Source: Solicoccozyma terricola
Lineage: Eukaryota; Basidiomycota; Tremellomycetes; Filobasidiales; Piskurozymaceae
Assembly (NCBI GenBank): GCA_001600875.1
Contig: BCLD01000023.1
Location: forward strand, 1,807-65,806
Length of the DNA: 64,000 nucleotides
Direction: 5' to 3'
The translations under genes and the position numbers were made by a program. The notes under the pieces were generated by a model, which ran no database searches, had not been told where the DNA came from, and saw only the letters and a list, made by a program, of their open reading frames with translations. This document shows, in pieces, positions 30,710 through 59,686 of this stretch; position 1 is the stretch's first letter; each line of letters opens with the position of its first letter.

Positions 30710-32311
30710 CTATTGTGCTGTCTTCCTCCTCGCTGCATTGCCCTCAGCCGGTGTAGCGAGAATGAAGTCTTTCAAAACCTGTTTGTGTGGTTTGTCGGAT
30801 GGAAATCCACGCCTTTGAGATGTATTCAGGTCATTCACATCCTTCATTTCCTGCCAATCGTGCCAATCAGCTCGGTTAGTATTCGGTTAGCCCACTTAAG
30901 ACAACTGTCAACTCACAACAACTAAAGATTGCTTGACACCGAAAACGGCATCGGACGTGAGGTAGGGGTCACCTGGGAAGTATAGAGCGGTGATCAAGGT
31001 CTCGAACCCTGGTGCCTGTCCGCGTAGACGGAAGGAAGGCCATTTCAGTGCACTCGTATTCCCCACCATAACTCCCATTGTCCAGCATACCTTGATCATG
31101 AAATGGAGATGGGCGGGCCGGAACACATGGCGACCCAAAGCCCGCACCATTGCGCCCACCGGTCCATCGCTCGGGATTGGATAAGGGACAGGCCTTTGGT
31201 GTGGGTGAATGGAGAACGTAAGCGCGAGCGCGGCGCCCATGCCGTAGTCAGCGTACCGCCAACACTCACACAACGGCTCTGAATCGGTATGAACCATCTG
31301 GTCCCGTGGTGATCCTGCCACGACAATCAGGGAGTTCTCTTTCAGAGTACTGAATTTATGAATGCAAAATCCCTGAACTCGGTGAGCCGCACGGCGCGCG
31401 GGAGGCGATGTGTAACAAGTAGCATACCTGCGTATCGTACAAACCATTCTCGTCCGTTTCCCATGTCTCAATGATGGCTCCCGAGATTGGATTGCCTGTC
31501 GTATCCACCACACGCCCTTCACACCAGAGATAATCACCCTTCCCTTCCGACGCTATCGATTGGCCTTGATCGACTGTAATCAAGTCCAGGCTTCATGAGC
31601 GGTACTGTATGCCTTGGATATGACGTAGGGGGGAGGGTGATGTCATACCATCAGGCGCATCCATCGTGAAAAATGGTCCCAGAACGGTCGCCTCTGTTGC
31701 TCCAGCCGGTTTGGCATTATTCAGGGTATCCACCAAAGCAGAGAGTCCCAGCGTATCGGACAGAAGGATAAATTCTGACAGTTGGACCCCACCGAATGAT
31801 ATGTACTTAGCACTGAAGCCGTTGCACTGATCCGCTCGCTCGCTCGCTCCAAGTCGTCTTCTGTCACTCACCCTGACGGATATCTGTACAAGTTTGTCCT
31901 GTGAGAGTCAAGAACTGTAAGGCCGTCCTGTTGGTTGTTTGGTTCATCAGCTTTGGGTGAATGAAAGCAGTCATTCAAGCTGCAAGCATACATCCATTCA
32001 TCGGTTGTGAGCGACGTCTCGCGTGTAAAGTCGTGGAGATGCTGAACCTAATCGATGTGCAGCGAGAGCTCAGCGAAACACCCGCCTTGATCAGAAATTC
32101 CGGCGCAAAAAACAACACTGACGAGATGTTGAAAGAGGAACTTCATTCTTGGGTTGTTGCACCCGCTGTTGATTGCCAGAACGTTTTCCGTAATGTTGTC
32201 GGGCGACAAATCCATCATCTTGGGCAAGGCGTCAAGATCAACGTTGTGATTCGCGGACAGCTTGGCCGCTTCAAGAGCAGCTTCGGTCTTCTCTTCTCGG
32301 GTGGTGGACAT
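30710..32311 (-). CDS. Hydroxyquinol 1,2-dioxygenase (intradiol ring cleavage)
   Basis: The enzyme opens hydroxyquinol (1,2,4-benzenetriol) between its two adjacent hydroxyls to maleylacetate, using non-haem Fe(III). The start is the ATG complementary to 32309-32311, reading [19 protein letters not shown] then [16 protein letters not shown]. Splicing gives [95 protein letters not shown] and RPAHLHF. The last motif holds the two His ligands and the GLYD region one Tyr ligand. A last exon after a GTGAGT intron ends at the complement of 30710-30712. [16 protein letters not shown] favours hydroxyquinol over catechol dioxygenase. It is divergent from maleylacetate reductase, the next enzyme in the pathway, across 277 bp. 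Confidence 0.9.
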
Positions 32312-32588
32312 GATGGGTGGTGGATGGGTGGATGGGTGGATGGGTGGATCGGCAGGGTGGTTGGGCGACTGTTGCGGACGTCGACCATATAACCTGCACG
32401 CCACTGAACAAGATTCGCCGCGCGGCGAAAAGATTATCCGCGCCCGGCGTATCTTTTTGCCGCGGGGCCCCGCAGCTCGCCACTCATATAACGACTCACT
32501 GGTGGTGTTGCAACAACAACAGCCACTGGTAACAACTTCCCATTGCTTGCCCTTTACATACGATTCCGACCTCAGTTGACCGGTTGCA
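32312..32588. promoter_or_regulatory. Shared divergent promoter of hydroxyquinol dioxygenase and maleylacetate reductase
   Basis: The 277-bp spacer holds four ATGGGTGG units (32313-32347) just before the dioxygenase ATG, a 16-bp perfect palindrome TTCGCCGCGCGGCGAA (32414-32429) and a 12-bp perfect palindrome GCGGGGCCCCGC (32462-32473). The GC palindromes are candidate sites for dimeric zinc-cluster regulators. That role is inferred. Confidence 0.6.
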
Positions 32589-33804
32589 ATGCGACCGTTC
32601 ACTTACAACGCCCTGCCGTCAAGAGTTGTCTTCGGCCACGGCACAATCTCCCAGATCAAGTCCGAACTGCAAGGTCTTGATTGTCGGAAAGCATTCGTTT
32701 TGACAACCCCTCAGCAGGCGGATTTGGGCCATCGAGTCCAGGCTGACCTGGGGGATTGGGCAGTAGGATTGTACACCAATGCGACAATGCACACGCCAAT
32801 CCACATCACAGAACAGGCCGTGGCTCTGGCTATCACTGCTCAAGCCGACTGTATAGTGGCCGCTGGAGGAGGTAGCACTACCGGCCTCGGCAAGGCAATG
32901 GCGTTACGGACAGGTCTTCCTCAAATCGTCTTGCCAACTACCTACGCTGGATCGGAGGTAAGCCCTGAACTTGACACGGATGACCAACGGCATATTCTAA
33001 CAGTTTCCTTTTTTTCTTTTTTTTCTTTTTAGGCGACCCCCATCATTGGTCAGACTGAGAACGGTATAAAGACGACCCAGATTACGCTCAAGGTGCTTCC
33101 GCAAGTCATCATCTACGACGTGGATCTAACACTCAGCCTACCCTTGTCGATGACCGTCACTTCGGGTTTTAATGCGATCGCTCACGCCGTCGAGGCACTT
33201 TACTCGGAGCAATGGAATCCCGTCACGGAATCCCTCGCTATTCAAGGTACACGATCGATCGTTACCGCTTTGCCGCGGATCCTGGAGAATCCCTCAGACA
33301 AGGAAGGACGTGCGCAGGCGCTATTTGGAGCTTGGGCATGCGGAACTTGTCTCGCTCAAGCCTCGATGGGATTACACCACAAGCTATGTCACTTGCTGGG
33401 TTAGTAGGCGGGGTGCTTACCATTTGCCATGTCGATTACAAGACTGGCTGACATCCGTTTCCTTCGGTCAACCAGGGGGAACGTTCAACCTGCCCCACGC
33501 CGAGACGCACACGGTGATCCTACCGCACGCTATCTCATACAACGAACACTATGCAAGCGAGGCCATCGGAAAATTAAAACCTTTACTCGGCGTCGAGAAC
33601 GTCGCTCAAGGGCTCTGGGAGCTGCAAAAGAAGCTCGGCGCACCCATGACCCTGCAGCAGCTGGGAATGCAGAAGACGGACTTGGAACGGGCAGCTGACT
33701 TGGCATGTCAGAAGCCGTATCCGAATCCAGCACCTTTAGAGAGAGCTCGATTGTTACAGCTGTTGAACAATGCGTTCCATGGGAACGCTCCCGGAAGCGT
33801 TTAA
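32589..33804 (+). CDS. Maleylacetate reductase (iron-type alcohol dehydrogenase family)
   Basis: The enzyme reduces maleylacetate to 3-oxoadipate with NAD(P)H. The start is ATG 32589 (MRPFTYNALPSRVVFGHGT), the typical opening of this family. The nucleotide-binding AAGGGSTTGLGKA is followed by PTTYAGSE, diagnostic of maleylacetate reductases within the Fe-ADH superfamily. A GTAAG intron (about 32959-33032) splits YAGSE from ATPIIGQTENG. Further motifs are TSGFNAIAHAVEALYS, GLHHKLCHLLGG across a second intron, FNLPHAETHTVILPH, and the end at 33804. Length is about 355 aa, normal for the family. Together with the divergent dioxygenase it forms a two-gene hydroxyquinol branch. Confidence 0.92.
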
Positions 33805-35202: not shown

Positions 35203-38182
35203 ATGACCAGCGCGGCAGAGGACGAGAGCGACAGTGTTACGCAACCGCGGAACATAAAGACTACCACAGGTGAGAACTTGGTCTGATATCCGATCTCAAG
35301 TCGGCATGATACTTAGCTAGGCGGACCTCACTCAAGCTTGTGACAGGTGCAGAAACAAGAAGCGCAAAGTAAGCCCAAGAACCCTGCTTCGGCGGGAGGC
35401 GCCCCCNNNNNNNNNNNNNNNNNNNNNNNNNNNNNNNNNNNNNNNCCCCCCCCCCCTTCCCCCCCTCTTCTGATTGCCAGGGTTGCATGCTGAAACCGAC
35501 AACAACCCATTGTTGCAGTGTGACGGAAACCGGCCGACTTGCCGACATTGTCACGTCGCTGGACATGAATGTACCTATGCAGGCCGACAAAAGCCGCGGG
35601 GTCCAGTCGCAGGTCACCTTCGAACCTTGGAGCGTCGAGTAGTCTGGTTGGAATCATTCATCGCCTATCTGAGTGAGAATATTTGGGACGATGAAACTAC
35701 GAACGGTTCCACGGCGTTGAAGGGCCTGTTCCTCGAATACTTGGCCGAGAGTGATGCGAGGTCCGATGCAAAGTGGGAGGCATTGCAGGCCATTTTCGAC
35801 CGGGAATTCAGAGGCGTCACCGTTCCGTCACATTTCAGCCAGAATATTGGTCCAAGGACTTTGAGAATGAAGAGGAGGATGGTGGACAGGGAGGACGGCT
35901 CGTCGGGTATTGGAGGAGATATGGCCCGCGAAAGGCGTCGTGATTCTGCCAGTCCAGTACAAGAGGGATACTATCCCTCCAGCTCCGTTCCACCACACCG
36001 GCCCTCGAACCCTGTGGATGAAGGCATCCTCTGGGACAACTTCCACCAAGAACCACCTTTTGGAGTTGCTGATCATTCCATGGAAGACGAAGAAACACTT
36101 CCGATGGATGCCGCCTCTCTCACACAGTCGCTGGGGCTGCATGGTCGTGGTTCGATGGCAAATGTACCAGCCTTTCCAGCGTCGAGCATGACTGCCGACA
36201 ATGCGTCGTGGATGAATCAGTGCAACGAACACCCACAGGCCTTTGAGCTCATGAACTCGGCTTTACAGCAGCAGCCAGACTTGGAAACCTCTGGTGCCTC
36301 GGCCTCGGTTCAAGGTTTGCGTACTGACATTGAGGGCACGGAGCCTTCGTTTCGTGGGCTGAACGAGGGCTTCATGTCTACGTCAATATCACGGCAAGCA
36401 TTCGACTTGGATTATGACAGCTCGTTGAGGTGAGTTTTGGCGTTGGGTCCTATGGGCTACCCCTATATGGTTATCGCGTCTACTGAAACCAGTCTCAAAG
36501 GCAAATACTTGAAGTCGAGGATGTTACCCGGATGTTGTCGACCACGCTCGCCAATCCTCAAATCGAAACACCTCCCAAGGAGGTCCAAGATCACCTGATT
36601 CAGCTCCACCTTCTGCATGTTCACCCGCTCTTGCCATTTTTGGATCGCGATCAACTGGTGGCCTATGTGTCAGCGGAAACTACCGCTCAGAACACCGATC
36701 GATCGCCTCCGTCTCGGATTCTCATCCTCGCAATCTGTGCATACAGCGCTTGCTTATCGCCCACATTGGGAGGTCTGGCTCCAGACGTCGATAGTTTGAA
36801 CCAAGAAAGCAGCGCAGGGGGCAGTCTAGCTGAATTCTGGGCGGAGGAGGCGAGATCCACGCTGATGGCATCTACCTTGAAAAGAAGGTGCGGCATCGAT
36901 ACGCTTCAAACCATCATTTTGCTGGTCCTACGAGATCATGGCAAGGCTCAACACTTCCAGGCTTGGCTCTGGTTAGGTATGTGACGGTCTCTCGTTCTCC
37001 TTGTCGAAAGCATTCTTGTTGAGAAGGGAATGTTTGACTCCAGGCATAGCAATCCGCACTGCACAGGACATCGGGTTGCATCAGGCAGATCCAAATGCCT
37101 CGACAGGGCCTGAATCACATTTCACGTCGACTACTCAGCGGAAAAGGCTATGGACGACGCTGTGCTTCATGGATGTCATGCTGTCGCTTCAGCTGGGGCG
37201 ACCCTCCGCCATAGAATTTGACCTGGAGGTTCCAGATCGTGACCTTTTGGGGAGCGGCTACGGGGTCAGAGCCTTCGACCATCTTCCAGGGATTTGTCGT
37301 TTACTCCAAGAGATTCGCAGGAAACTCTACGGTGCTCGTTCGGTCACCGTTCCAGAGCTGGACACCATCAAAGAGCGTCTCCAGAACTGGAAGTCCTCTC
37401 TTCCTAACGACTTGCAGGGAATCTTGGGCGAGGATGTTCCTCCAGACGTAGCCTTGCTGCTCATGCTGTATCATACAGCCGTGCTGTTGGCCTGGAGGCC
37501 TTTGTAAGCTCGTGATCTGGCCAAGGTGGGAATTTTCTTCTGGCTGACCTTACCTCCTCCGCCATATAGAGAGCGTATAGAAGGGTTGGTTGCTATCAAA
37601 CCAACCTCTCTCGCCACGACCGCTTTCAAAGTGCTCCTGGATGGCGTCCAAACGATGTCGAACGGTCGATTCTCCGCCTTGCATTGCTGCCCACAGACGA
37701 TATACACGGTTTTCACGGTCGCCATCTCGCTCATTTCGGCCATCCGTCAGCTTCGCACGGTTGCAGACGTCAATCCGACATCGTTGTCCGCCATTCTGAC
37801 GGCCCGTGTCTCTCTCCTCTCTTGCACTGAGGCTCTGGGGGAGTTGGCCAAAACCTGGCCATTAGCACGGCGATGTCATGATATCCTGCAACGGCTGACG
37901 GAGGCAGAACAATTACAGACCCTACATACAAGCCATCTAGGACAGGTTACACCATCTGGAAACAGCTTTCCGCCAGCTACTCCAAACCGAGCGCAACGGC
38001 TGAACATGGCTGGTCCATCTGATATCCCTTCGGACCTCTCAGGGCAACTACAGCCGCGCACGATGCACGACAGCATATTTATCCATGACGCGGGGCTTCA
38101 ACTGCCGTTCCAAACGGCGGAATGGACATCCAATGAAGACCTGTATGCGATGTTGAATTTCGATTGTTCAAGTCTACTATAG
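35203..38182 (+). CDS. Zn2Cys6 fungal transcription factor inside the aromatic cluster
   Basis: ATG 35203 opens an exon that splices (GTGAGA donor, CTCAAG acceptor) to ACDRCRNKKRK and, over a second intron, to CDGNRPTCRHCHVAGHEC. Together these form a textbook zinc cluster (CX2CX6CX5CX2CX6C). A basic linker and short coiled coil follow (HLRTLERRVVWLESFIAYL). The fungal_trans region has HVHPLLPFLDRDQLVAYV, HGKAQHFQAWLWLGMAIRTA, QDIGLHQADPN and KRLWTTLCFMDVMLSLQLGR. The stop is at 38182. It does not resemble QutA/QA-1F, whose body derives from AROM, so it may replace that activator here. Position between maleylacetate reductase and the dehydratase genes suggests cluster-specific control. The 39-nt N gap (35407-35445) falls inside the second intron, so the protein is not affected. 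Confidence 0.87.
35407..35445. other. Assembly gap (39 N) in an intron
   Basis: The N run is flanked by C runs on both sides and lies in the second intron of the transcription factor. Confidence 0.95.
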
Positions 38183-40238: not shown

Positions 40239-41322
40239 ATGACTACCCCAGAATTCCCCAAGAAGCTCGCAATTGTTGGGACAGGCATTTCTCACTGTAG
40301 GTCACGATGATAATGGATCTTGGCTTTGCCACGCTGACGAGCGTCTCCGCCGACAGCCTTGGCCCCAGCGATCCACAATTTCATCAGTGAATCTTTAGGC
40401 TTGCCTTATCACTTCGGCCTTGCGGACACTCCGGACATTGCCTCCTTCGTAGATCAATTTCGATCTCCCGAGTGGGTTGGCGCGGTAGTCACCTTGCCTC
40501 ACAAATGCACGGTCATTCCTCTATTGGATATTGCCGATCAACACGTCCAGGCACTCCGTGCATGCAACGGGATTTGGAAGAAGCCGGATGGCAGCCTGGT
40601 TGGCACCAATACAGACTGGCGGGGGATCTACGGCTCCTTGCTCTCAGCTAGTGATGAAGGGATGCACAAGCCTGCAATGATTGTGAGTAAACTGATGTCG
40701 GCGTTGCGTGCGGGAGTCAATACTGATGCAACCCGTGGCCCTGTAGATTGGAGCAGGAGGAGCTAGTAGAGCAGCCGTGTATGCTTTATCGGTCCATCTC
40801 CACTGTCCGAAGATATACATTGTGAGTTCCTCCAGATCGCTGTGTAGTAAAGGCAGTGCTGAATATAATATCTTTCGGACATAGATTAATCGAGACCGAC
40901 AAGAGGTTGACAGCCTGCTGGACGACGTGACCGGAGGTTACACTGCCGCCGGACTAGGCGTCCCCGAACTCATCCATTTGGAAGACCCGGATCAATTGCG
41001 GTCCCTTGAGACCCCGTATTACATCGTCGGCACGGTTCCTGATTTCGAACCACATACAGAAAGCGAGCTTTTGGGCCGTAAACTTCTGGAGGATACCTTG
41101 AAGAGACCAGAGAAGGGCGTGCTCTTGGACATGTGCTACAAGCCGCGCTTTACTCGTCACCTCAAATTGGCTGAGGATTACAGTTGGCGGACTGTGGACG
41201 GAGTCAATATCATTGCATACCAGATCGAGGAGCAGTGGTCGTTGTGGGCAGGAAAGGAAAACGCGGATAAGATTCCCGTAGCAGAGGCAAGGACCGTACT
41301 TTATCGAGCTGCTCTGAAGTAA
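40239..41322 (+). CDS. Shikimate/quinate dehydrogenase-like protein (AroE family), copy 1
   Basis: Family members oxidise quinate or shikimate with NAD(P)+, reversibly. ATG 40239 gives MTTPEFPKKLAIVGTGISH, spliced to SLAPAIHNFI (substrate-binding S and N region). The catalytic Lys is in AVVTLPHKCTVIP and the catalytic Asp in GTNTDWRGIYG. Splicing joins KPAMI to IGAGGASRAAVYAL, the dinucleotide-binding loop, then INRDRQEVDSLL, VGTVPDF, GVLLDMCYKPRFT and the C-terminal QIEEQWSLWAGKE. The last motif corresponds to the family's Q-x3-Q-x2-lid region. Length is about 300 aa, normal. An in-frame upstream start would add a basic, Arg-rich leader that does not resemble the family. Quinate versus shikimate preference cannot be read safely from sequence. 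Confidence 0.87.
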
Positions 41323-41634
41323 CTTGTTTAGGCGTTCCATGTAGCGGAGGTTGCGTGTGTCTATATTCCGACAGAACCGGGGCGACAGATGCCAACGCAG
41401 CCATAGTATTATGTTTGCTCCTCGGTTTCCGGGTTTCCACGACCTGCCCTGCGGGATATGAAAATTCCGCATTATCTCTATTCCGCTTAGTTCTTCCGCT
41501 TGACGACAAACCCTTGCACTTGCCTCGCCCAGAATCTCCACTTGCTTACCCATATAATCTCCACGCATCTCTTTGCCAATCATCATCTTGATCCAACAAC
41601 GGATCCCTTGTCTGCCCTCGAACAATTTCGCATC

Positions 41635-43046
41635 ATGGGTATCATCATAACTCCAGAAACACCAGTTTCTTCCCTGCCAATTGCAACAGCGACGATGTCA
41701 TTGGGTAAGTCCCTTCTATTCTCTATTGAACTCTTGCGGATATTAATCAACCTTACTGTGGACTACCACAAATCAGGTCGTGCATGGGTACACGACCTCG
41801 ATGTCAAACTCGCCGCTGCAGGGAAGGCAGGATACCAAGGAATCGAGATATTCTGGGAAGATCTGGTTTATGCGGCGAAGCGGTTCGATCCCGATGCCAC
41901 TGAAGAGTCAGTCGAGCCGATTCTTCAAGCTGCGAAGTGGACGAAAGATCTTTGCAACGAGAACGGCCTAGAGGTCTTGGTTCTACAACCATTCATGAAT
42001 TATGATGGCGTGCTCGATCCTGCCATTCACGCGAAACACATCGCCAAACTTCACCTTTTCTTCAAGGTCGTCAAAATATTGGGAACAGATTCGATACAGG
42101 TTCCCACTCAGGTTGGTTTGGTCACGAGGGTCAACATACGTCGTGCGTGGGTTGACATGGTCTCCCCCGCCTCGTCATTTCTTGCAGATGGTCAAGGAGG
42201 GAACGACCGGAAACTTCGGGAAGATAGCGGCTGACATGCGGGAAATAGCGCTACTCGGGCTTAAGGAGGATCCACCTGTGCGGTTTGCTTATGAAGTCAT
42301 GGCCTGGGGCGCTCACATAGATACGTGAGCATTATATCACCCAGAGAAAGGAGCATCGACAAAACTGGGGTTGCCTTTCTGACATTCGACGTCATTCGCA
42401 GCTGGGAGGACTCTTGGAAGATTGTTCAAATGGTGGACCTACCCAACTTCGGCATAGGTAAGAGATAGTGGTGAATAAATCTCGGCGCTTATGAATCTGT
42501 TTTGCTCATGCTGCTGCATCTTCTACCACAGTGTTCGACACATACCAGGTGAGTCTCGCCGATGAGCGGGACACGAAGTATCCCACTTATATCACTGTTC
42601 CATACCAGATCGTGGGGCGAGTTTGGGGAGATCCGACTGCTCCAGATATGAAACAATCGAATGCTGATCAAGCGCTCAAGGACACTCTGAAGCGTATGAT
42701 CGATACTCCAGGACTAAAAGATAAGCTGTTTTACGTTCAGTTCAGCGATGCTGAACGATTGGAACCACCACTTTCTCCCTCACATCCCTACTGGGACGAC
42801 AACATGCTGCCACACATGCAATGGTCGCGGAATGCTCGCCTGTTCCCTTGCGAAACAGGCGGGGTCCTCCCTCTGGTGGAAATCGCACAAACATGGTTCG
42901 TCGAAATGGGATGGAGGGGATGGGTGTCGATGGAGCTCTTCTCGCGGACCATGGCCGACCCCGATCCCAGTGTGCCGAAGACTCATGCGGAACGAGGGAT
43001 AGGCTCCTGGCATCGGTTTCTGAAGGAGATAGGTCAGAGCAATTAG
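41635..43046 (+). CDS. qutC: 3-Dehydroshikimate dehydratase
   Basis: The enzyme converts 3-dehydroshikimate to protocatechuate, the step committing quinate carbon to ring catabolism. ATG 41635 and a first intron give SLGRAWVHDLDVKLAAAGKA, then GYQGIEIFWEDLVYAAKRF, ENGLEVLVLQPFMNYDG and DSIQVPTQMVKEG across a second intron. Later exons give RFAYEVMAWGAHIDTWEDSW, VDLPNFGIVFDTYQVSL, YVQFSDAERLEPPL, WSRNARLFPCETG and GWVSMELFSRTMADPDPSV. This is the xylose-isomerase-like TIM barrel of fungal QutC/Qa-4 enzymes, about 360 aa. The glutamate in SMELFSR is the likely last divalent metal ligand. The gene lies directly after and co-oriented with the first AroE-like gene. Confidence 0.9.
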
Positions 43047-45860: not shown

Positions 45861-48800
45861 ATGTCTGAATACAAATTAGCGCGTACGTTCATGTCATTCG
45901 CTTTCAAACACAGCTGCCCTGCTTACCGTCGATTCCCGCCACCGTTGTTGGAATTCGCAGATCCAATAACAGGCAAGTAGTGCTATCCCCTCTTTTTAGG
46001 TCCTCAACCAAGACTGAAAGACGAACGAATGGCTATGGGAACCTGACGGTCTTGGCATGTTGGTTAGACGAACAGACGGTCATTCTTCACCCCGACGCCC
46101 TGCAATTTATTCTCAATCTTCATGCTAGATTCGATCACAGACGACAAGCTGTAAGTTTATCACTGTCTCGTTCCTGCCGTCGATGCGATTCGCCATTCTT
46201 CTCATTTTCTTTCTCTCTCTTTCCGTCTCTCCCTCTTTCTCTCTTTCTCTCTCTCTCTCGCTGTGTCTCTGTGTCTCTTCTTTCTCTTTATTTTACAGCT
46301 TCTCCAAACCCGAAAGGATCTTCAAGCGGAATGGGATTCCGGTTCCCTTCCCGGAACGTCGGAAGAAACGAAATATATACGGGACGATCCAGATTGGAAG
46401 TGCGCCGATCCGAGTAAATCCCCGGCCCGTTGTCTCTACCCGACACGATGAATGGTAACCTCCCCCTTTCCCCTTGATCCAGCACCTAGACTATCGGACC
46501 GGCGTGTTGAGTTGACGGGAACATGCGACGCAAAAATGTTGATTGATGCGTCGAATAGGTGGGTGACAGACAGGGAATCATTCGCTTTCCGCGAGCTGAT
46601 GCCGATTTTCTTGTTATCTTGTGTCGCCCACTGGTCATCCTCCAGCGGTGCCAAAGGATATCTAGCGGATTTAGAAGGCAGGTCTTGCCATAAAGGTCAT
46701 CTTCTACTGCAGAACTAATGCGATACATTGCACCGGGTCAGACAATCATCCACCGCTTTGGCAGAAAACTATGGCGTCCCAGATCAGCCTTTATCAAGCT
46801 ACTAGGGGCAAGCTATCCTACAAGGATTCAAGTGGCAACATAATTTGTATCAACAATACGCCGACGGCGGCTGTTATTCATCTGAGGCCTCGGGGTCTGC
46901 ACATGGACGAACCTGGCATTCTGATATCGGGTATAGCGGTTTCCGCCTCCTTGCTAGATTTCGGCCTCTACTTCTACCATAATGCAAAGGAACTCATTAA
47001 CAATGGTGTCGGCCCTTACTTCTACCTGGCGAAGTTGGAGCACCATCTGGAAGCACGGTGGTGGAATGACGTCTTCTCCTATTCTGAACAGGCGCTACGG
47101 ATTCCACCTGGGAGCATCCGAGCTACGGTCATGATCGAGACCTTCCCAGCGATTTTCCATGTAGAGGAAATATTATATGAGCTCAAAGATCGTTGTGCGG
47201 GTCTGATCGCGAGCCGATGTATGTAACCGATGTGACTCTGATTTCCTCAGAAGGGGGCCATTGTACTGACATCTTCAATTCGCCCCACGTCAGGGGATTG
47301 TGAGTCGACCGCGACCTAATCTAATCACGGTGCATCGGCATCGATAACATTCTCGAGGGCTCCCACAGACGTCTTCTCTCTGATCAAGACGCTACGCAAG
47401 CATCCCGACTGGGTTATGCCGGACAAAGCCGCTCTCGCTACACGGCCAGGGACATTCTTGACCGCTCAAATGATGACCGTCTTGCGGGTCTGTCATAAGT
47501 GCGTTGACTTTTTCGCATGGACAACAAGTCAATGATAAAGGTGATGCGAGCCGCTGACATACGTGCCCGAAACGGCAACAGGAGGAATGTCATTGCCATG
47601 GGCAACATGTCTTCACAACTTCCCATCGGGCACGAAACCGAGCTCAACAGCATCAGGGAAGCGATCCATAGAGACAAGGTGTGGGATGCGCGACAGGGGT
47701 ATGATGGAACTTGGTTGGCCTCTCCGGCTTTTGTCTCAATAGCTTTGGAGGCTTACGCATCCATTGTAACTGGAGACAATCAGGTATGTTGGGGCCTAAG
47801 CTTTGTTTCTGAGCGGTTGTTCTCAAAGATTGCATACTGTCTGCCGCGATTTCAGAGATCCCGAATGCGCGACGATATTCGGTACACCGATTCGGATCTC
47901 CTTTGTAGAAGATTCCCTGGAGAAACTACGGAGCAAGGCGTAAGTCAGGCGGCGTTCTATGCGCTGAAGTACATCGCAAATTGGTTGGATGGTACGGCGC
48001 TTGTCTCTATCAAGGTGATTACTCATTCCGTAGCCTGCTAGATCGTGTAGCAGGATGGAATAGCTAATTTCCAACGAAACCGATGTAGGGTTGCACTGAA
48101 GATGCCGCCGCTGCGGAACTAGCTAGATCAATGCTGTGGCAATGGGTGTACGTGGAATTTTTCTGATTGGCTTGCAGAGTTTACGTTTAATATGGGTGCA
48201 ACCCCCCCCCCCCCCTCTACCTACCCTAGGCATTACGGCACAATCGCAACATCAGGTCGAAAGATTACCACAGAATATGTCGAAGGAGTACTGCAACAGG
48301 AAGCGCTTGCTGTCAAAGGACAACAACCTGAGCTTCAGGCCCAAACGGACGTCGCCGTTGCCTACGTGATGCGGGTCGTCTGCCAAGACCTGATCGACAG
48401 CCATCTGACTGCAAGTCTACAGCTTTACTCCTTTCTCCGTCCACATGCACTGACGGTCACCCAAACAAATCCGTAGATCGATCTGGTGCCTCAGCTGGAA
48501 TCTTTCGCAGCGGACAAGATTGCCAAGGCTTCCGCATTCAACTCGACACCGAAACAGTTCTGGGTCATTGGATACCCCATCGCCCAGTCAAAGTCACCGA
48601 TGATTCACAATACTGGCTACAGTGTAACGGGGTTGCCACACAGGTATTCGATTCACGAAATTCCACAGCTCAATGAAGACATTCCCGGCATGCTCAACGA
48701 CCCGTACGTCCCCNCCCCCCCNCCCNCCCNNNNCNCNCGAGTTCCTTGTCTGGCACCATGCGCGATACCAGCTTACCCGCCGGGATAATCGTACAGACAT

Positions 48801-49669
48801 TTCGGGGGAGCAGCTATTACCATGCCCTTCAAGGTACCGATAATGCATTATCTTCAAGATCTGACGCCTGCGGCTAAGGTTCTGGGGGCAGTAAACACAG
48901 TGATACCCACCACTAATGCTCATGGAAAACGAATCCTCTTAGGCGATAATACTGACTGGGTGAGTTTCTTGACGCCTGTCTAGTCAACGATCCCAATCAC
49001 AAACTTATTGTTTGAGTCTCAGCTCGGCATATACAATGTCCTCTTGAAGGATTTGAGGGCGGAACATAAGCTGGCGGCGGACTCCACGGGCATGGTCATT
49101 GGCGCTGGTGGAGCGGCACGCGGCGGGAGTGAGTCCGCATCCGACGATGCTCGAGGGAGGAGAGTCTCGTTGACCTTATCTTCTGGATCATTTCAGTATA
49201 CGCACTGAGACAGCTCGGCATCAAGCACGTCTACGTATTCAATCGAACCCGCTCCAAGGTAGACGATCTGATTGCCGACTTTCAAGACTACGACGTGACC
49301 ATCATTGAAGTTCACTCGCTTGATGCACTCGTTTTCACTCGAGGACCTCCTATCTTTGTGATCGGGACCGTTCCCGCGAAAGGAACAGCATTGCCTGGAA
49401 CCTTGGCAGAGGATGGGTCAGTCATACTTAGCCATGACATTTTCAGCCGACCGCAGGGCGGGGTGATGTTGGACATGGCGTATCTCCCTAAACGCACTCC
49501 GTTGATACAGATGGCCGAAGAGGCGCAAGGTTGGGGCGTCAATCCAGGCATCATGGTGCTTCTTCAACAAGCCTATGCTCAATTCAAACTATGGACGGGT
49601 GTGTCGCCACCTGAAGCCGCAATGGCAAAGGCTACACTCGAGCAATACGAAAAGGATGTCTCTGGTTAA
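45861..49669 (+). CDS. Malate synthase-shikimate dehydrogenase fusion protein
   Basis: The malate synthase part condenses glyoxylate and acetyl-CoA. It shows [58 protein letters not shown] with the catalytic Arg, [16 protein letters not shown] and [20 protein letters not shown]. After a 6-nt exon that restores SRWDYVFSLIK come [36 protein letters not shown] with the catalytic Asp, and [18 protein letters not shown]. Spliced across 48411-48476 the frame continues [15 protein letters not shown] into an AroE domain: [28 protein letters not shown] with the catalytic Lys, [32 protein letters not shown] and [11 protein letters not shown], ending at 49669. The AroE part has no ATG before its substrate-binding motif, so it depends on the fusion. 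Exons before about 46060 are uncertain (a frame disagreement near 46000-46070). I know of no described fusion of this kind. Confidence 0.8.
46189..46300. repeat. CT-rich low-complexity intron stretch
   Basis: TTTCTCTCTC-type repeats fill much of the intron between two malate synthase exons (HRRQA and [12 protein letters not shown]). Confidence 0.7.
47294..47299 (+). other. 6-nt microexon of the malate synthase region
   Basis: GGGATT lies between an acceptor (GTCAG) and a donor (GTGAGT). With the upstream exon ending at 47218 and the next starting at 47369 it yields SRWDYVFSLIK, exactly the conserved RWDYIFS segment of malate synthases. Without it the W-D pair is lost. Confidence 0.75.
48202..48215. 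repeat. Poly-C tract (14 nt) before a 3' splice site
   Basis: The run lies in the malate synthase intron that ends CCCTAG before HYGTIATSG. Confidence 0.7.
48411..48476 (+). other. GC-AG intron joining malate synthase to shikimate dehydrogenase
   Basis: The donor is GCAAGT, the consensus of rare GC-AG introns. A CTGAC branch-like sequence lies near 48450 and the acceptor is CCGTAG. The intron is 66 nt, phase 0, and both flanking exons are in one frame. Its last codon is an in-frame TAG, so retention ends the protein after malate synthase with a short extra tail. Confidence 0.7.
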
Positions 49670-50106: not shown

Positions 50107-51006
50107 CTACGTGCATGACGATGACTCGCCAGCTTCTTTCACTTCCTGAGCCCTCTTTACCGCCAAACGCAGGGCTAGTTCGTAACCCTGAGACAAGCGC
50201 AACGATGAAATACAATGTGACCAAAGTCAGAAAAATGCTTGCTCTTTTGCGTGAGATGAGGAAGGGAAAAAAAGAAACCCCCAAATCTCACAAAGATCCC
50301 TGCGCCCACGATTGTCCCTTTGCAAACCGGACCCACGCAACTATGTTGCCTCCACTCCTCACGGGTGTGCAGATTTGCGATGTGAATCTCGATGACTGGA
50401 GTGGGTGTGGCTGCGATAGCGTCGTGTAGAGCCCAGCTGTAGTGGGTGTATGCGCCTGGATTGAAAACAACGCCAGCCAGACAGCGGGAGTAGTGAATGT
50501 ATTCCACCAGCTCCCCCTCAATGTTGCTTTGGGCACATATCCTGCGAATGTCCGGTGGTGTAAGTGCGACCGATATGTATTCTCAGCAGCTATGGCTTAC
50601 ACTTTGACGCCGAGCTCCTTGCCCAGCTTGACGACCATCTCCTCCATCTCTTTCAACGTCGTCGTTCCATACCTGAAGAACCGTTCCAAGTGGTTAGGGG
50701 TTGACGGATGAATGAAGAAGCATAACAGGCGTGATCAGCCGGGGTTCATCAATCACAGTAGAGGGGAGAGATGTACTGCTTTGGATCCCGATGGCCAAAC
50801 AGGTTGTGATTCACGGAATGTAACAATAGAAACGTGTTGTGATCCTTGGGTTTACGGAATCCATCTTCAGGATCCACACGAGGTGGGAGTCGTTCATACT
50901 GTGTTTGTGGACGAATGTAGCGATTAGCAGAGAGACCGGAAAAGACGGCAGGTCTATTGCAGGGCATCATAGAACACAGTCGAACGTGCAAAGGACTCAC
51001 AGACAT
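50107..51006 (-). CDS. qutE: Type II (catabolic) 3-dehydroquinase
   Basis: The enzyme dehydrates 3-dehydroquinate to 3-dehydroshikimate in the catabolic quinate pathway. The start ATG (complement of 51004-51006) codes only two residues before a GTGAGT intron. The next exon reads DHNTFLLLHSVNHNLFGHRD, with the active-site Arg, then PKQYGTTTLKEMEEMV carrying the catalytic Tyr across a second intron. Further exons give QSNIEGELVEYIHYS, LAGVVFNPGAYTHYSWALHD and VIEIHIANLHTREEWRQHS, with the catalytic His and the lid residues. The last exon ends at the complement of 50107-50109 (GYELALRLAVKRAQEVKEAG). Length is about 155 aa, normal for QutE/Qa-2. The usual GPNLN near the start is altered to SVNHN. 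It is co-oriented with the AroE-like gene upstream. Confidence 0.87.
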
Positions 51007-52039: not shown

Positions 52040-53520
52040 TTACATCTCTGGGGGTTCCATATTTGTCCTACTGTCCATCGCCACTTGGTTCCTCACGATC
52101 TCAAATACCTCCTTGACCGGTAAGTCTGACTCGTCGCATTCGAGCCACAATTTCTGTTGCTATTCGTCGAAAATAACAAAAAAAGCCCAAAAAAAAAAAA
52201 GAAAGAAATCAGTCACGGCTGCAATGTTAGAACGGGACGGATTGCTCACTTCGATTCCTTGCCATATCATAGCGACCTCTCCCGTCACCACGGTCCAACC
52301 TGCAGTTTGGGCTATCTCCGCTATGACAGTCCATGGATGTGGAAAGTAGCACATCTCGAGGATCACACCCTTCTCTGTCTTGTTTCTATTGTGGGTGGTG
52401 GAAGACATGTTAAGCAGCTCAGCCAACATCCTTCTTCTTTCCCTTTCGTACATCAGCTCACAATATGACCTCTAAGACCTGCCGAACTCTAATCTCCCCT
52501 TCGTTCTTGGGCGGGAATGACGGTACCGCGCTGACGATATAGCCTGCATCCAGGAGATTCTTGTCAATTATTGGGCTGCAAGGCCAATCTTGTCTGCCGA
52601 CCCACTGGGTGCCGGGATACTATGCGCCTGCTCAACTTCTCTTAGATGGATCAGGGTGGGATTGAATTTATGCGTCGTGGAGAAGTGTTGCTTGACGGAT
52701 GCCACTTCGTCGTCATCCCTGTTGACTATATAGATAGGGCTACAATGCAGCCATTTATGAAGACTGTTTCGGTTCAAAATCGAACCGCAATCAGCATAGC
52801 TCTCTTACGATTCGAATGTAGGTTTGCTCGCTTACGCATACACTGCAGCCCTGTGAACGATTTTGGAGAAGCGTCAATGTGACTTTGAGGTCTCCGCTTC
52901 TGCGGACGAACCTCGCCTACCTTGCTGCGCCGCCACCTCCAATGATCATTCCTGGTCGCACGCTGTCGCCAGTATGTCCAGGGGGTTTCACACCAAGAAG
53001 GGCATCTTTCACCCCAATGCAGCTGCGGAAATACTGATGAGTATTGCTTGTTGCCCTTACTTGAAACGAAAAAAGAAAACGGGAAAGGGAACGGACTCTG
53101 TGTTGTGCCCCATCAATTGACGCTTCCCGTCCGATGTCTCTTGCCAAAATACGGAATTGCAAGCCCCGATGGTTCGCCCCTCTTCAGTAGCACCATCGAG
53201 ATGATCCATGATAGCGACTTTGTACGGCCTATGGTAGTCGGGGAGAAGTGAATAGTCAGCCACGCCCACTGTTCAATGCTATATACCAAAAGAGGTTCTG
53301 ATTCTTACATGGTGACCGCAGCCCCACCAAAATCGTCAGCAGTCGTCAAGGCTAAAAACTGATCCATTCCCGAAAGGAGCTCCAGCTTGGAATACCTTCG
53401 TGGGATATTTGCCAGTTGAGTTAATTTGTTGTGAAGGAAAGGCGCGTAAGTACGTTTGAGAGGATAGCCGAAGAGGTAGGTCTGTCTCGGTTGGTTACGC
53501 TTTTCTTCTGAGATCGTCAT
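52040..53520 (-). CDS. Shikimate/quinate dehydrogenase-like protein (AroE family), copy 3
   Basis: The start is the ATG complementary to 53518-53520, and the first exon reads QTYLFGYPLKRTYAPFLHN, the substrate-binding motif. DDFGGAAVTM splices to PYKVAIMDHL, giving the catalytic Lys. An intron within GHNTD splits the catalytic Asp codon and continues CIGVKDALLGV. GMIIGGGGAARAAVYAL is the dinucleotide-binding loop, then IVNRDDDEVASVKQHF, IVSAVPSFP and VILEMCYFPHPWT. The C-terminus reads SDLPVKEVFEIVRNQVAMD and stops at the complement of 52040-52042. The family's usual Ser pair in GxSxSP is replaced by KRTYAP. NTDC, not the NTDW of the other three copies, suggests different substrate or cofactor preference. 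It is divergent from the quinate permease across about 690 bp. Confidence 0.83.
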
Positions 53521-54211
53521 TTTGCGCTTGGTAACCGAGTGGGATGTTGTGCAGCAGGCTTGTGCAAGGGGTTCCGGCGTGACACTGACACCGTATATGC
53601 ATTTCATGCTGAGCGCTTCAGACAGCTCAGTTGCGCGATATAGTTTTCCGCAACCATCCGTCCACAACCAAGGCAGCGTTGCACGAATACGCAAAATCAT
53701 ATTGCCGCAAACGATGTACCCGGACGCGGAAGCTCTAGCACCCCCAGCGAGAGATAGCAAGCTTAGTATGGATAATTCAAGCCTGGGGCCACGAAACTCA
53801 TATCAGATTTGAACCACTTACCAACGCTGCAAGTAACTGCCGCGAGGCTTGTCCGGAGTTTCCCGGCTAGACCGCTTGACCAAATGCGGACTATTGGGTT
53901 TCCGCAAGTCGGGACTCCTCACCCCTGCCTGCTGGGCCTCCGCAACCCCAGAAGTTACTGTGTGGCGGGGAGTGGGGTATAGTTTACCCACTAGACTGAT
54001 CGTCGAGTTTCAACGTCCGAGACGGGAGGCCTTCGTCCCCGCCTCATTGTCCAACAGTGGAGACTGGAATCTGCTATAATAGGGGATGTAAGCTAGGAAG
54101 TCGAGGTCCTCGAAGTATCATCACATCTTTGAACCCAAGATCCTCAAAGGGCATTCTTCCTCACTCGGAAATTTTGAGCCCGGTTACTGTTACTAATTCG
54201 TTTCGATTAAC
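53521..54211. promoter_or_regulatory. Divergent intergenic region of AroE-like gene and quinate permease
   Basis: The 691 bp contain several GCGGGACTCC/TTTCCG-like CG-rich patches near 53850-54010 but no clear repeated operator. The reading frames present look accidental. Confidence 0.4.
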
Positions 54212-56700
54212 ATGGTCGACATCGGCAAGAACGAGAGCAAGATGTTGGCTCCGCATGAAGTCTACAACTGGCGAGTATACTTCAGTGCGGCGGTGGCTGC
54301 GTTCGCAGCAGTGACGATTGGATACGATGTGCATAGCGTTAAGCCGCTGTTCCTCGTCGTCCTTCCCGTCGCTGAACTATTGTCTGCTCTTCTCACAGTC
54401 TGCATTCATCGGAGTAGGTGGCTGGTCGACGGCCTCATACTTGTTGACAATCGTTCAGACCGCTTCCTCGCAGACATCCCTCTCGCTTACCTCATTCAAG
54501 ACCGAGTTCGGGCTCCTCAAACACACTCAGGCCGAGTCCAATTTCTTGTCGGCCAACATCGTGTCGACCTTCCAAGCTGGGGCATTCTTTGGTGCATTTG
54601 CGGCGTACCCCCTGGGCTACTTCTTCGGTCGTAAATGGGGACTCTTTGTGACTGGTGTCATCTTTGTGGTAGGCAGCATCATTCAATGTTGTGCGAGCTC
54701 CAAGACCGGGCTGGGCACCATGTACGCTGGACGGATCATCGCTGGGTTTGCGATCGGAATAGCGTCGAACTTGACGGTGATTTTCCTGACCGCCTAGTCG
54801 TCCATCGAATCCGACATTGTATTGATATTGATTGCAATCAACAGCCTATGTTTGTTGCTGAAATCGCCCCACCTGCTATTCGTGGTCGGCTCATCGGTCT
54901 GTACGAGCTTTCCTGGCAGGTGAGTGCGCGGCGTTGAGCGTGCGTTCCGAGCAACTTTTCTTTACTTCCGCAATTACAACAGAGCGGGTCCGTGATTGGA
55001 TTCTGGATAAACTATGGAGGCGAGTTTTGAGGAAGCTTGATAGCCATTTTTACTGTGCTGATGTGTCTACTTGCGGTTTCAATTGCAGTGACCCAACACA
55101 TCCCCGCGTCAAATAAGGATCAATGGCTCATTGCCTTCATCGTGCAAGTTATCCCAGGGACGATCTTGACCATTGGTGCTGTGTTTATCACCGAGTCTCC
55201 CCGCTACCGTACGTCCCCATCCTCTCCATGTCCCGGCGTCCACTTGAGCTAATCCGTAGCCGCCAACGCCAATAGTCGCGTCGCGCAACCGCAACACCAA
55301 GGCTCTCCGGAACCTGTGTTACCTCCGAAATCTGCCTGTGGAGCACCCATACATCCAAGAAGAGTTTTCCGACATTTGTACGTCTCTTGAGCGGGACAGA
55401 GAGCGCGCTGGTGCGGGCTTCTGGGCACCGTTCAAGGGCGTATTCTTGCACAAGTCACTGGTCAAAAGAGTCGGCATTGCGGTGTCGCTCTTTGCTTGGC
55501 AGAACGGTACTGGTATCAATGCCATCAACTACTACTCGTGAGTCTGGCCCAGCTGTTTGTTGTTCTACTCTTCCGACCCGCCGGCCTGCGAACGGTGTGT
55601 GTGCTGAGATCCCCGGGGCGGCCCGGCCCATTCCAGACCGTCCATTTTCAAAAGCATTGGTGTTACCGGGACCAGTACGTCACTTCTCACGACTGGTGTG
55701 TTCGGTCTTATCAAGTTCATGGCCTCGCTCGTTTGGCTTCTTTACTTGGTTGACCGAGTTGGAAGGAGGAGTCTGCTCATGGCAGGGTCCCTCGGTGGCG
55801 CGATTTGCATGTACTACATTGGAGCCTACATCAAGATTGCCGACCCCGTGCATCATGTCACGGCCAAGCTTTCCAGCGCTGGAATATCGGCAATGGCGTT
55901 CTTCTACCTTTGGACGAGTGAGTGCCGCCGCAGCGCCCAATGGTCGTCTGCAAGGGCTACACATTCTCACAGCTTGTTCTGTTGCGATTCTACAGTCTGT
56001 TATGGACCGTCTTGGAACGGGACGCCTTGGGTGAGTTCAATTTTTTGATTGTTGCGTGAACCTTTTTTCTTGAAACGCGTGACTGAGCCCGCGGGCGGTG
56101 ACCTCTTGACCACCCGTTGCCAGGTATTTGGATCTGAATCATTTGAAAACGCCGTTCGTCCAGCAACGCAATGCGTTGTCTCTGCCTCGAACTGGCTCTT
56201 TGGGTTCATTATTGCACGTTTCACTCCTAACATGTTCGCCGTGAGTTAGTTTGCGACGAGCGGGGTGGGGGTTCCTACAAGTCCAAGATGCTGATGATAT
56301 AACGAACGCTGTGGACTCTAAAAGGCAATGGGATACGGGGTCTATATGCTTTTCGCTACTCTCATGATCTTGTCCATCTTCTACGTCTACGTAAGTGGTG
56401 CTGTTATGAGACGGACGGGCTCGTAACGGAAGCCAAACTGACTGACCCTGTTAATGACCTCGACAGTTCATCGTCCCGGAGACCAAGGGCATTCCTCTCG
56501 AGCGAATGAACGAGCTCTTTGGCCCGGGTATCAAACCATGGAAGGCATATGGCATCATTATGGAACGCCTGAGGGTCGAGCACGCAGAGACGCAGGCGCA
56601 GGTGCAGGTGCAGGTGCAGGCGCAACACGACGACAACGCGGCGCGCATCGGGAATTCATTGGACGGCAAGGCCGAAGAGGCTCAAATCGAGTCGGTGTAG
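54212..56700 (+). CDS. qutD: Quinate permease (MFS)
   Basis: A proton-coupled plasma-membrane importer of quinate. ATG 54212 gives EVYNWRVYFSAAVAAFAAVT then GYDSAFIGVSLSLTSFKTEF after splicing. Further motifs are FFGAFAAYPLGYFFGRKWGL, AGRIIAGFAIGIASNL, PMFVAEIAPPAIRGRLIGLY, FITESPRY, FAWQNGTGINAINYYSP, LVDRVGRRSLLMAGSLGG and GSESFENAVRPATQCVVSAS. The last is followed by NWLFGFIIARFTPNMFA and by VPETKGIPLERMNELFGPGI. These are the QutD/Qa-y signatures (PETKGIPLE, ASNWLFGFIIARFTP), with twelve helices. The C-terminus has a QVQVQVQAQ-rich tail. Many short introns interrupt the gene. It lies just upstream of, and in the same orientation as, the QutR-like gene. Confidence 0.88.
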
Positions 56701-57167: not shown

Positions 57168-59686
57168 ATGGCCAGCACCACCACCCTCCCACGTCCTAGC
57201 AGCAGGGTTGCCGCAGCCACATACTCCCGACCGTCGTCTCCCGTTGGCCAGAAGTATGACAAGAATGCGACGATCGTGTTTATCGGACAGCGTGGGGGTG
57301 AGTGAGAGTCGTCCTGCCGTGCTCGACCGACGGAATGGTGACTGACCCCGAGTATGTTGCATCTACTACGTCGTCGTAGTGGGAAAGTCCCTCGTCGCTT
57401 CGTTGGCTGGACGAGCGTTGCATCGCGCTGTCGTCGAGATGCAGGATGGCCACGGCGGCGGCGGCGGCGACGGCGCGGCCGAATACACCGCCGCCTTGAA
57501 GGATCTTCAGTCGGGTAAGATCCTGGTCATTGGAGACAGATACCTCCATGACCCGTCTTTGAAACACGCATTGGAGGATTACGGAAGACAACATGGACCG
57601 GTTATACAGGTCGTTCGTGAAATAGGTCACACTATCGACTACCTGAAGAAAAATGGGATGGGGGAACTGCAATTACAGGACATCGAGGCATGTTGGAGTG
57701 AACGTGAGCATGAACTACGAACCATGGCTACGTTCATCTTTGCTTCAGTGGAAAACTCGATCAGAGGTCACGGAGGCCAAGACTTGAATGCGTGGCGACC
57801 ACGGACGACCAACAACGAGCTTCCAGACGAGCCAACACCGACATCCGCGTCATTCGTCAACGAGGACCTCCTCCGTCTGCTCAGATTCATTCGCGGAACG
57901 TATACAAATCACATTCCTCATACCTCCGCGCGATCGTACTACCTCGCACTCACGTTCGATCACATCGAACTAGCACTCCCTCTTGTCGATGAACTATCCA
58001 TCGGGGTTGATTGTTGGGAAGTACGCGCGGATCTACTGGCGAATCCAGATCTCAACTCGATCATCCATCAAATCGCGTTACTACGTCGATTCTCCGACCT
58101 ACCCATCATCTTCAGCTTGCGTACGAAATCACACGCTGGATCTCTTCCAGAACCAACGGAAGACGAAGGTGTGATTGATTACATGTTTGAAGCGTCTTTG
58201 GCAGCTTTGAAAATGGGAGTAGAGTACGTCGACGTTAGCGATGTGCTTCCACGACGGATGAGATCAGCTCTTATCGAGTGTAAAGGGAATAGTAGGATCA
58301 TCGCTTCGTGTCAGGATTTCTCGGGTAGAACGACGTGGCAACAGGACGAGGTGAGGCTTCGGTCCTACTACGACGAGTCATGCAGCATGGGAGCGGATAT
58401 CGTTATGATAGTCAACCTTGCAAGGGATAATGAAGATAATCTTGCGGCGAGGAGGTTCGTTCAGTGTGTACAGAAGCAAGTTCCGTTGATTGCATTCAAC
58501 GTCGGGATGGCGGTGAGCGCGCGTGTGATGAAAAATATATATATGGGAATCTGCGTCAAAGGTCAGCTAACGAGTACTCGCCGTCGCACAGGGCAAGATC
58601 TCCCGGATATGGAATCACTTCCTCACACCGGTCTCACACGCCTTGCTACCCAAGATTTCCGCGCCGGGACAGTTGACGTATTTGGAAAGTCAGCAGGTGA
58701 GCGGACTAATGTTATCATGTGAATGAAATAATGCTCATCCCCCCCCCCCCCCCCACCCCCACCCCTCCCAGCTCCTTTACATAACTTCGGCGACGTTACC
58801 AAAGACCTTTTACGGCTTTGGCGTTGACCTTCGGGACTCACTCTCATCGTTGATACATACCGTAGCCTTCCAAAAGCTCGGTCTACCGTACAGCTATCGC
58901 GTGGTGGAGAGTGATCACGTCGAACTCTATTCGCAAATTATTGCCGACGAACACTTTGGAGGAGCCACCGTCAATCGACCTCACAAAGTCGACATAATAC
59001 CCTTTCTTCGACGGTTAACACCACACGCCGAAGCCTTGGGCGCTGTCGACACCATCATCGCCTCACCAGCAGGACCGGTAGGCGAGAATACCGACTGGCG
59101 TGCCATACACACCTGCATCCTCCGTTGCCGATTACGCAGCAACTCCACCGACAAAGAGCCTTCCGTTCTCGTCGTTGGTGCAGGAGGGGTCGCGAGAGCC
59201 GCCGTATATGCTTTGCTCCAACTTGGGATCAAAAAAGTCCAGATTGTCAACAGGTCGTTGGATCGAGCAACGGCATTGGCTTCTTTTCTTGGGCGGCTGG
59301 ACCCAAACTTCAACATCGCCGTCGTGGGCGATTTGAACACCCAACTAGGAGACGATTGGATACCCCCAGATATTGTCATCTCTACTATTCCTCAGCTGGA
59401 GAGCGTACAAGATCTCGCGCGCCTACTTCCGCCAGAGAAGGTGTTTGCGAAATCACAAGGCATCCTATTGGACATGGCTTATGCGCCACGCTTGGAGAGC
59501 CCTCTGAATCAACTACTGAGGTCAATGGGTAACAAGAACTGGGATAGCGTCCATGAGACGGACGCTTTGCTTGAACAGGCATACGAACAAATACGATTGT
59601 GGACGGGAAAGAGGGCACCACGAACGGCTATTCGAAATGCCGTAGCCAAACAGAGGGAAGCTTTGTCGTCACATTCGACGACGTGA
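57168..59686 (+). CDS. qutR: Quinate repressor homologue (QutR/QA-1S-like; shikimate kinase, dehydroquinase and shikimate dehydrogenase domains)
   Basis: The protein has the order of the last three AROM domains, as in QutR. ATG 57168 leads to IVFIGQRGGVGKSLVASLAG, a shikimate-kinase Walker A loop across an intron. The middle domain is type I dehydroquinase-like: YYLALTFDHIELALPLVDEL, LPIIFSLRTKSHAG, RIIASCQDFSG, ADIVMIVNLA, then GKISRIWNHFLTPVSHALLP after splicing. The catalytic His (expected in SYHDF) is Gln, and the Schiff-base Lys (expected in DIVKI) is Met, so this domain should be inactive. The C-terminal AroE part has FYGFGVDLRDSLSSLIHTVA, GGATVNRPHKVDII, GENTDWRAI, VVGAGGVARAAVYALL and ILLDMAYAPRLE, ending at 59686. 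QutR proteins sense quinate-pathway metabolites and repress the QutA activator; no QutA is in this window. A Gly/Asp-rich insert follows the Walker loop. Confidence 0.85.
58739..58754. repeat. Poly-C tract (16 nt) in an intron
   Basis: The run lies before the CCCAG acceptor that opens the AroE-like part of the QutR-like gene. Confidence 0.75.

Follow-up and report, generated by a model that had tools for sequence, protein, structure and literature searches.

Does one gene of the basidiomycete Solicoccozyma terricola encode a malate synthase (MS) fused to a shikimate/quinate dehydrogenase of the AroE type? The question is raised by positions 45861-49669 (+) of a 64,000-nucleotide stretch of this genome (assembly GCA_001600875.1, contig BCLD01000023.1, positions 1,807 to 65,806; hereafter the window, in whose numbering all coordinates are given), for which an initial annotation had proposed such a fusion across a 66-nt intron. 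We find that the gene, known from this one genome, very probably encodes a single polypeptide. Our model comprises 16 exons and 15 introns, with 866 codons plus a stop; every junction is in phase and stop-free, and Pfam recognises domains of both enzymes in the predicted protein, which bears out the fusion at these coordinates and in this frame. The MS domains are MS_N (residues 30-91), the MS TIM barrel (186-427) and MS_C (435-548), and the AroE domains are Shikimate_dh_N (574-655), Shikimate_DH (693-754, partial profile) and SDH_C (830-855), all above their cut-offs. The parts of the gene to which we refer below are as follows.

45861..48410 (+): exons 1-12, encoding MS_N, the TIM barrel and the bulk of MS_C (gene model, Pfam, spliced alignment).
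46678..46741 (+): intron 5, GC-AG, taken by 119 of 120 MS homologues; its removal restores the conserved LADLE/D.
47294..47299 (+): 6-nt microexon within the conserved active-site motif W-D-Y (W299, D300, Y301); both flanking introns are taken by all 120 homologues.
48411..48476 (+): junction intron 12, GC-AG, phase 0, 66 nt, with an in-frame TAG (gene model, tail scoring).
48477..48703 (+): exon 13, with the last half-helix of MS (IDLVPQLES) and, after a short linker, the first part of the AroE substrate-binding domain.
48477..49669 (+): exons 13-16, the AroE part (Shikimate_dh_N, Shikimate_DH, SDH_C), with Lys632 and Asp673 present.
48600..48602 (+): first in-frame ATG of the AroE part, immediately 3' of the SKSP motif (48588-48599).

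Splice sites were placed by hand from splice signals, reading frame and the conservation of MS and AroE, and the introns were then checked by aligning 120 MS homologues to the gene with an automatic splice-aware method. Nine introns of the MS part were agreed by at least 119 of these homologues (six by 120 and three by 119). The intron at 46414 was taken by 82, with 37 preferring a nearby donor, and that at 45973 by only 5; the model is insecure at the start codon and in exon 1. Three of the 15 introns start with GC (45973, 46678 and 48411); in the normal MS gene on contig C17, none of the 10 introns within the span aligned does so. Intron 5 is a further GC-AG intron of the fusion gene, independent of the one at the junction.

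The case for one polypeptide turns on this junction. The MS exons end in DLIDSHLT at 48410 and the AroE frame opens with exon 13 at 48477; the intron between them has a CTGAC element 27 nt from its 3' splice site, and its final three nucleotides (48474-48476) are the in-frame TAG that the initial annotation had noticed directly before the AroE exon. The C-terminal helix of MS begins with FLT and continues, in the basidiomycete proteins seen, roughly as SDL-x-(P or G)-x-L. The residues IDLVPQLES, encoded from 48477, resemble this conserved end, including that of the normal MS on contig C17 (FLTSDLMGHLD, intronless there). Since the residues after the intron fit the conserved MS end, exon 13 appears to hold the MS terminus together with the beginning of AroE, and between the two it has neither a stop nor a start codon.

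To compare the possible endings, up to 9 residues after the LT motif of the MS homologues were scored (BLOSUM62) against the spliced tail, the read-through tail and the tail from an out-of-frame GT donor. For the 117 of 120 homologues that could be scored (3 lack the motif), the spliced tail outscored the read-through tail in 112 and the reverse was true in 5, in agreement with the splice from 48410 to 48477 that had been proposed. Mean scores were +4.1 for the spliced tail, -10.5 for read-through and -10.7 for the GT donor; the latter, at 48415, was rejected, as the resulting tail is unlike MS ends. MS profiles also cross the junction, which lies at residue 544: Pfam MS_C extends to residue 548 (4 residues past it) and TIGR01344 to 547 (3 residues). 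On the AroE side, the homologue P0242 of Leucosporidium, aligned alone, runs from 48537 in exon 13 to 49666 with three introns.

The AroE half is probably an active dehydrogenase, with quinate or shikimate as substrate. Of the 52 columns shared by 93% or more of 116 AroE homologues it retains 47, and it scores 222.6 bits with the shikimate/quinate dehydrogenase profile TIGR01809 (cut-off 196). Lys632, Asp673 and an S-K-S motif (S582-K-S584) are present, which we take to be the catalytic residues and motif of this enzyme class.

The odds that the MS half still joins acetyl-CoA to glyoxylate, or to a close analogue, are about even. All three Pfam MS domains exceed the gathering score (MS_N 52.4, TIM barrel 247.7 and MS_C 64.1 bits), and the alignment shows Arg188, Arg190, Glu272, Asp300 and Asp469 to be retained. 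An aldehyde-binding Arg, Mg ligands and a catalytic base have been described for the H. volcanii and E. coli enzymes (PMC3112382). By alignment, one of Arg188 and Arg190, Glu272/Asp300 and Asp469 would be their respective counterparts, and the retained Pro358 and Trp388 may match the Pro and Trp which that study assigns to the pocket, via a motif-based mapping in which the spacing is 30 versus 26. The MS half is 44% identical to the host's normal MS, a value that, on a branch this saturated, suggests that the fold is under purifying selection.

Several results weigh against an ordinary malate synthase. The MS half keeps 110 of the 143 columns that are at least 95% invariant among the 120 MS homologues, compared to 143 of 143 for the C17 copy; the poorest of the 120 homologues retains 87% of the columns at this level (leave-one-out). 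For columns that are at least 99% invariant, the count is 70 of 93. The 33 altered positions include N295I, G297S, G352N, A355S, H391S, M467T and T472A; N295I and G297S adjoin the Mg ligand, and M467T and T472A the catalytic Asp. The NCBI profile for the malate synthase A equivalog, TIGR01344, assigns 516 bits to the MS half, short of the required 594.5, while the control protein P0001 scores 765. The branch of the MS half measures 3.7 and 4.04 substitutions per site in two trees, with end-branch medians of 0.12 and 0.1, respectively. Moreover, the open MS frame is poor proof of MS function, because the AroE half itself needs the frame to be open. Fungal malate synthases generally carry a C-terminal peroxisomal signal of the xKL type; among five of them, P0001, P0002 and P0031 end in AKL, P0007 in SAL and P0034 in SNL. 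The fusion protein ends in VSG and has no xKL-like signal at its C-terminus; the normal C17 MS terminates in GRL, itself no textbook signal. Two MS genes were found in the genome, and only the fusion copy has diverged; isocitrate lyase is represented by one gene on contig C11 and an additional partial match on contig C8. Given the loss of about a quarter of the near-invariant positions, the score below the TIGR01344 cut-off, the missing xKL-like end and the normal MS on C17, it is a real possibility that MS activity has changed or been lost, a serious rival that the initial annotation had not considered.

The likelier form of this rival is a single polypeptide in which the MS half makes no malate and acts as a scaffold, or as a sensing or regulatory domain for acetyl-CoA or a 2-oxoacid, on a working quinate dehydrogenase. 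The extreme branch, the substitutions beside the Mg ligand and catalytic Asp, and the presence of a normal MS and isocitrate lyase elsewhere in the genome all fit a loss of malate synthesis, but the residues aligned with the catalytic Arg, both Mg ligands and the catalytic base are retained and the fold seems to be under selection; we regard this reading as unlikely, though less so than any of the other rivals. The MS half would then parallel fungal quinate regulators, which are said to stem from domains of the AROM enzyme. A tentative and slightly less probable idea is that the MS half has become a new condensing or sensing domain, dependent on acetyl-CoA or a 2-oxoacid and linked to the enzyme that opens quinate breakdown. 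If true, one protein would start the pathway and respond to, or consume, its end product.

It is rather improbable that the MS half of a single polypeptide has changed substrate, using another acyl-CoA or 2-oxo acid for a new condensation tied to quinate or hydroxyquinol breakdown. Retention of the catalytic residues while neighbouring, normally invariant positions are altered, in the only diverged copy of the two MS genes, fits such a change. However, the neighbouring genes point to no substrate, and plain drift fits the pattern too.

Returning to the single polypeptide as such, we consider it very unlikely that there is no fusion at all, and still less likely that two adjacent genes are present, with MS ending at the TAG at 48474-48476 by read-through of the intron and AroE translated from a transcript with an unseen start exon. 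Results at the junction that count against the fusion come from unaided spliced alignment: only 4 of the 120 MS homologues (by elimination P0001, P0002, P0004 and P0007) called the junction intron, while 87 stopped short, 18 entered the intron for a few residues and 11 used a different intron. In a first version of the alignment, which also gave P0241 a spurious first intron of 2099 nt, the junction intron was called by 2 of 4 homologues and missed by the other two, the Tremellomycete proteins P0031 and P0034. Unaided alignment is a weak test here, because only about 10 residues lie past the junction. Two genes would also fit the separate AroE genes of Microbotryomycetes and the junction donor, which is GC; GC donors are generally weaker than GT donors. 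Since the junction intron is of the GC-AG type, its retention could yield an MS-only product. By contrast, the read-through tail is unlike MS ends, and the MS end is located in the AroE exon. The AroE part could not start alone without an extra exon, as had been argued before, since a start at its first ATG would remove the SKSP motif. A separate AroE gene with its own ATG was nevertheless tried: considering GT donors only, 91 combinations of ATG, GT and AG (ATG at or beyond 48100, acceptors 48477-48558) formally give a start, but none is convincing, as the best donors score 3/4 and leave an exon of 6 nt, and the next best score 2/4. Finally, an assembly or annotation artefact is hardly credible: the gene is seen in one genome only and nine N lie close by (48714-48737), but these are a sequencing weak spot in the C-rich tract of intron 13, inside AroE and away from the junction, and the junction exon is continuous and bears both protein ends.

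The two halves of the single polypeptide seem to differ in origin, combining a duplicate of the host lineage's own MS with an AroE of a type found in another subphylum, as indicated by the AroE tree, the MS tree and the intron positions shared with the C17 MS. A tree of 49 AroE sequences places the fusion AroE with those of Leucosporidium and Meredithblackwellia (support 100/99), inside a Microbotryomycetes group (100/99) that is weakly joined (83/72) to a mainly stand-alone ascomycete group. The trees are compatible with either transfer or differential loss of the AroE half. The normal C17 MS is Tremellomycete-like, with 76% identity to Kwoniella, and clusters with Kwoniella and Cryptococcus at 92/62 in one tree and 80/75 in another, neither value being starred. 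The MS half groups with Agaricomycotina (98/88), apart from bacteria and other fungi, and at 98/91 in a fungi-only tree. Since it also shares three intron positions with the C17 gene (DFE/D, CHK/R and directly after PNQ), a bacterial origin was rejected. Its placement within the group is unsafe because of the branch length of 4.04: constraining it with two Rhodosporidiobolus sequences or with ascomycetes was rejected at the borderline (p-AU 0.0498 and 0.0416), while constraints with Tremellomycetes (0.212) or with the C17 group (0.146) were not.

Within the best matches and the literature searched, the fusion of MS with a shikimate/quinate dehydrogenase appears to be a new combination. The initial annotation knew of no such fusion and had suggested looking for proteins with both domains; we found none among the best 120 matches of each search of 5.77 billion proteins, and none in the titles and beginnings of abstracts searched. 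With residues 200-866 as query, for which scoring was limited to the 7994 candidates that had most words in common with it, the best 120 of 614 matches had MS domains only (504-559 aa) and included no protein with both; any such protein should have headed this list. With residues 540-866 and candidates limited to 0.55-1.75 times 866 aa, the best 120 of 1126 matches had no MS domains and were AROM-type proteins or combinations of AroE with shikimate kinase, dehydroquinase or further dehydrogenase domains. The AroE part alone likewise gave no protein with both domains among the best 120 of 4013 matches, which were headed by stand-alone proteins of Meredithblackwellia (60%), Leucosporidium (58%) and Phenoliferia (46 and 44%). 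Malate synthase is not mentioned in the part of PMC9394408 available to us.

Like malate synthase A (TIGR01344; E. coli 3CUZ, B. anthracis 3CUX), the fusion protein has the order MS_N, TIM barrel, MS_C and the active-site Arg, Glu, Asp and Asp; unlike it, the protein is fused, lacks the xKL-like end and is diverged in profile score and conserved columns, as given above. The AroE proteins P0241 (Meredithblackwellia) and P0242 share a similar N-terminus, FN(S/T/A)(T/S), followed by the AroE fold, but are unfused and have 332 and 319 aa, whereas the AroE of the fusion sits behind MS. In AROM, dehydroquinase-AroE and quinate-repressor proteins, AroE is also C-terminal in a multidomain protein; upstream of it are shikimate-pathway domains in the best 120 matches, and MS here. 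Nematodes and Euglena have a bifunctional isocitrate lyase-malate synthase (PMC1630690), in which MS is likewise joined to another metabolic enzyme; the partner there is the other enzyme of the glyoxylate cycle, and not a quinate/shikimate dehydrogenase.

The surroundings of the gene are of the quinate type: a type II dehydroquinase, part of an intradiol dioxygenase, an iron alcohol dehydrogenase, a sugar-transporter-family gene and a zinc-cluster regulator are among the neighbours. The features are as follows.

30911..31552 (-): part of an intradiol dioxygenase, hydroxyquinol type by eye (PF00775).
32580..33801 (+): iron alcohol dehydrogenase, maleylacetate reductase by eye (PF00465 and PF25137 on 32580-33401).
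35474..38179 (+): Zn2Cys6 transcription factor (PF00172, 22.1 bits, cut-off 21; PF04082).
40263..41256 (+): separate, divergent AroE-like gene (aligned span), 37 of 52 conserved columns.
41491..43043 (+): TIM-barrel gene, tentatively a 3-dehydroshikimate dehydratase (PF01261, 25.5 bits on 41491-42231, under the cut-off of 31.1); no Pfam match in its later part, 42495-43043.
50295..50552 (-): type II 3-dehydroquinase, matched part (PF01220, 107 bits); hmmscan of the pieces 50288-50596 and 50597-50734 gave no match.
52132..53487 (-): divergent AroE-type gene, 36 of 52 conserved columns.
54197..56045 (+): sugar-transporter-family gene of the major facilitator superfamily, possibly a quinate permease (PF00083 on 54315-54794 and 55608-56045).
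57346..59683 (+): dehydroquinase I plus AroE protein, domains ordered as in fungal quinate repressors, 44 of 52 AroE columns; its N-terminal region has no Pfam match.

Ascomycete quinate clusters, as described in the part of PMC12610400 available to us, comprise a dehydrogenase, dehydroquinase, dehydratase, activator, repressor and permease; the dioxygenase and reductase near the fusion gene fall outside that description.

Set in this cluster, the fusion might work as follows. Its N-terminal part would be a duplicate of the host lineage's malate synthase A that evolves fast and has lost the usual MS tail; directly behind its final helix would follow a quinate/shikimate dehydrogenase of the stand-alone type. 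The AroE half would provide the cluster with its functional, NAD(P)-dependent dehydrogenase for quinate (or shikimate), and an acetyl-CoA-condensing domain would have come under the same promoter as the dehydrogenase. The fusion protein would probably reside in the cytosol and not in the peroxisome, and could there draw into malate the acetyl-CoA that the 3-oxoadipate end of the pathway supplies. Such a coupling of quinate oxidation to the use of acetyl-CoA, which the initial annotation had inferred, is plausible. Enzyme fusions often unite adjacent steps within a pathway. The present fusion would link the entry step of an aromatic-precursor pathway with the use of its distant end product, its MS probably lying in another compartment than the usual enzyme, and would pair an MS duplicate of the host lineage with a dehydrogenase whose nearest relatives found belong to another subphylum. 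The system is suited to asking directly why a fusion partner is retained: for flux, for regulation or as a mere scaffold.

Three extra AroE-type genes lie within 20 kb (40263-41256, 52132-53487 and 57346-59683), and some of them may be regulators or enzymes for other substrates. The protein at 57346-59683 may, by its domain order, be a quinate repressor; its AroE clusters with one on contig C28 (95/96). The two divergent AroE sequences also group with one on C28, on long branches that possibly attract each other. A second type II dehydroquinase is located off the cluster, on contig C15 (63159-63648). Further away in the window, genes that look GH3-like by eye are found at 16962-19104 (+) and 21619-24828 (-); of two frames scanned, one matched GH3_C (on 16962-17423) and the other PA14 (on 22994-23968). 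Conceivably, these genes serve to set free plant glycosides in the vicinity of the quinate genes. A 1340-codon open frame at 648-4667 (+) resembles a retrotransposon polyprotein by eye.

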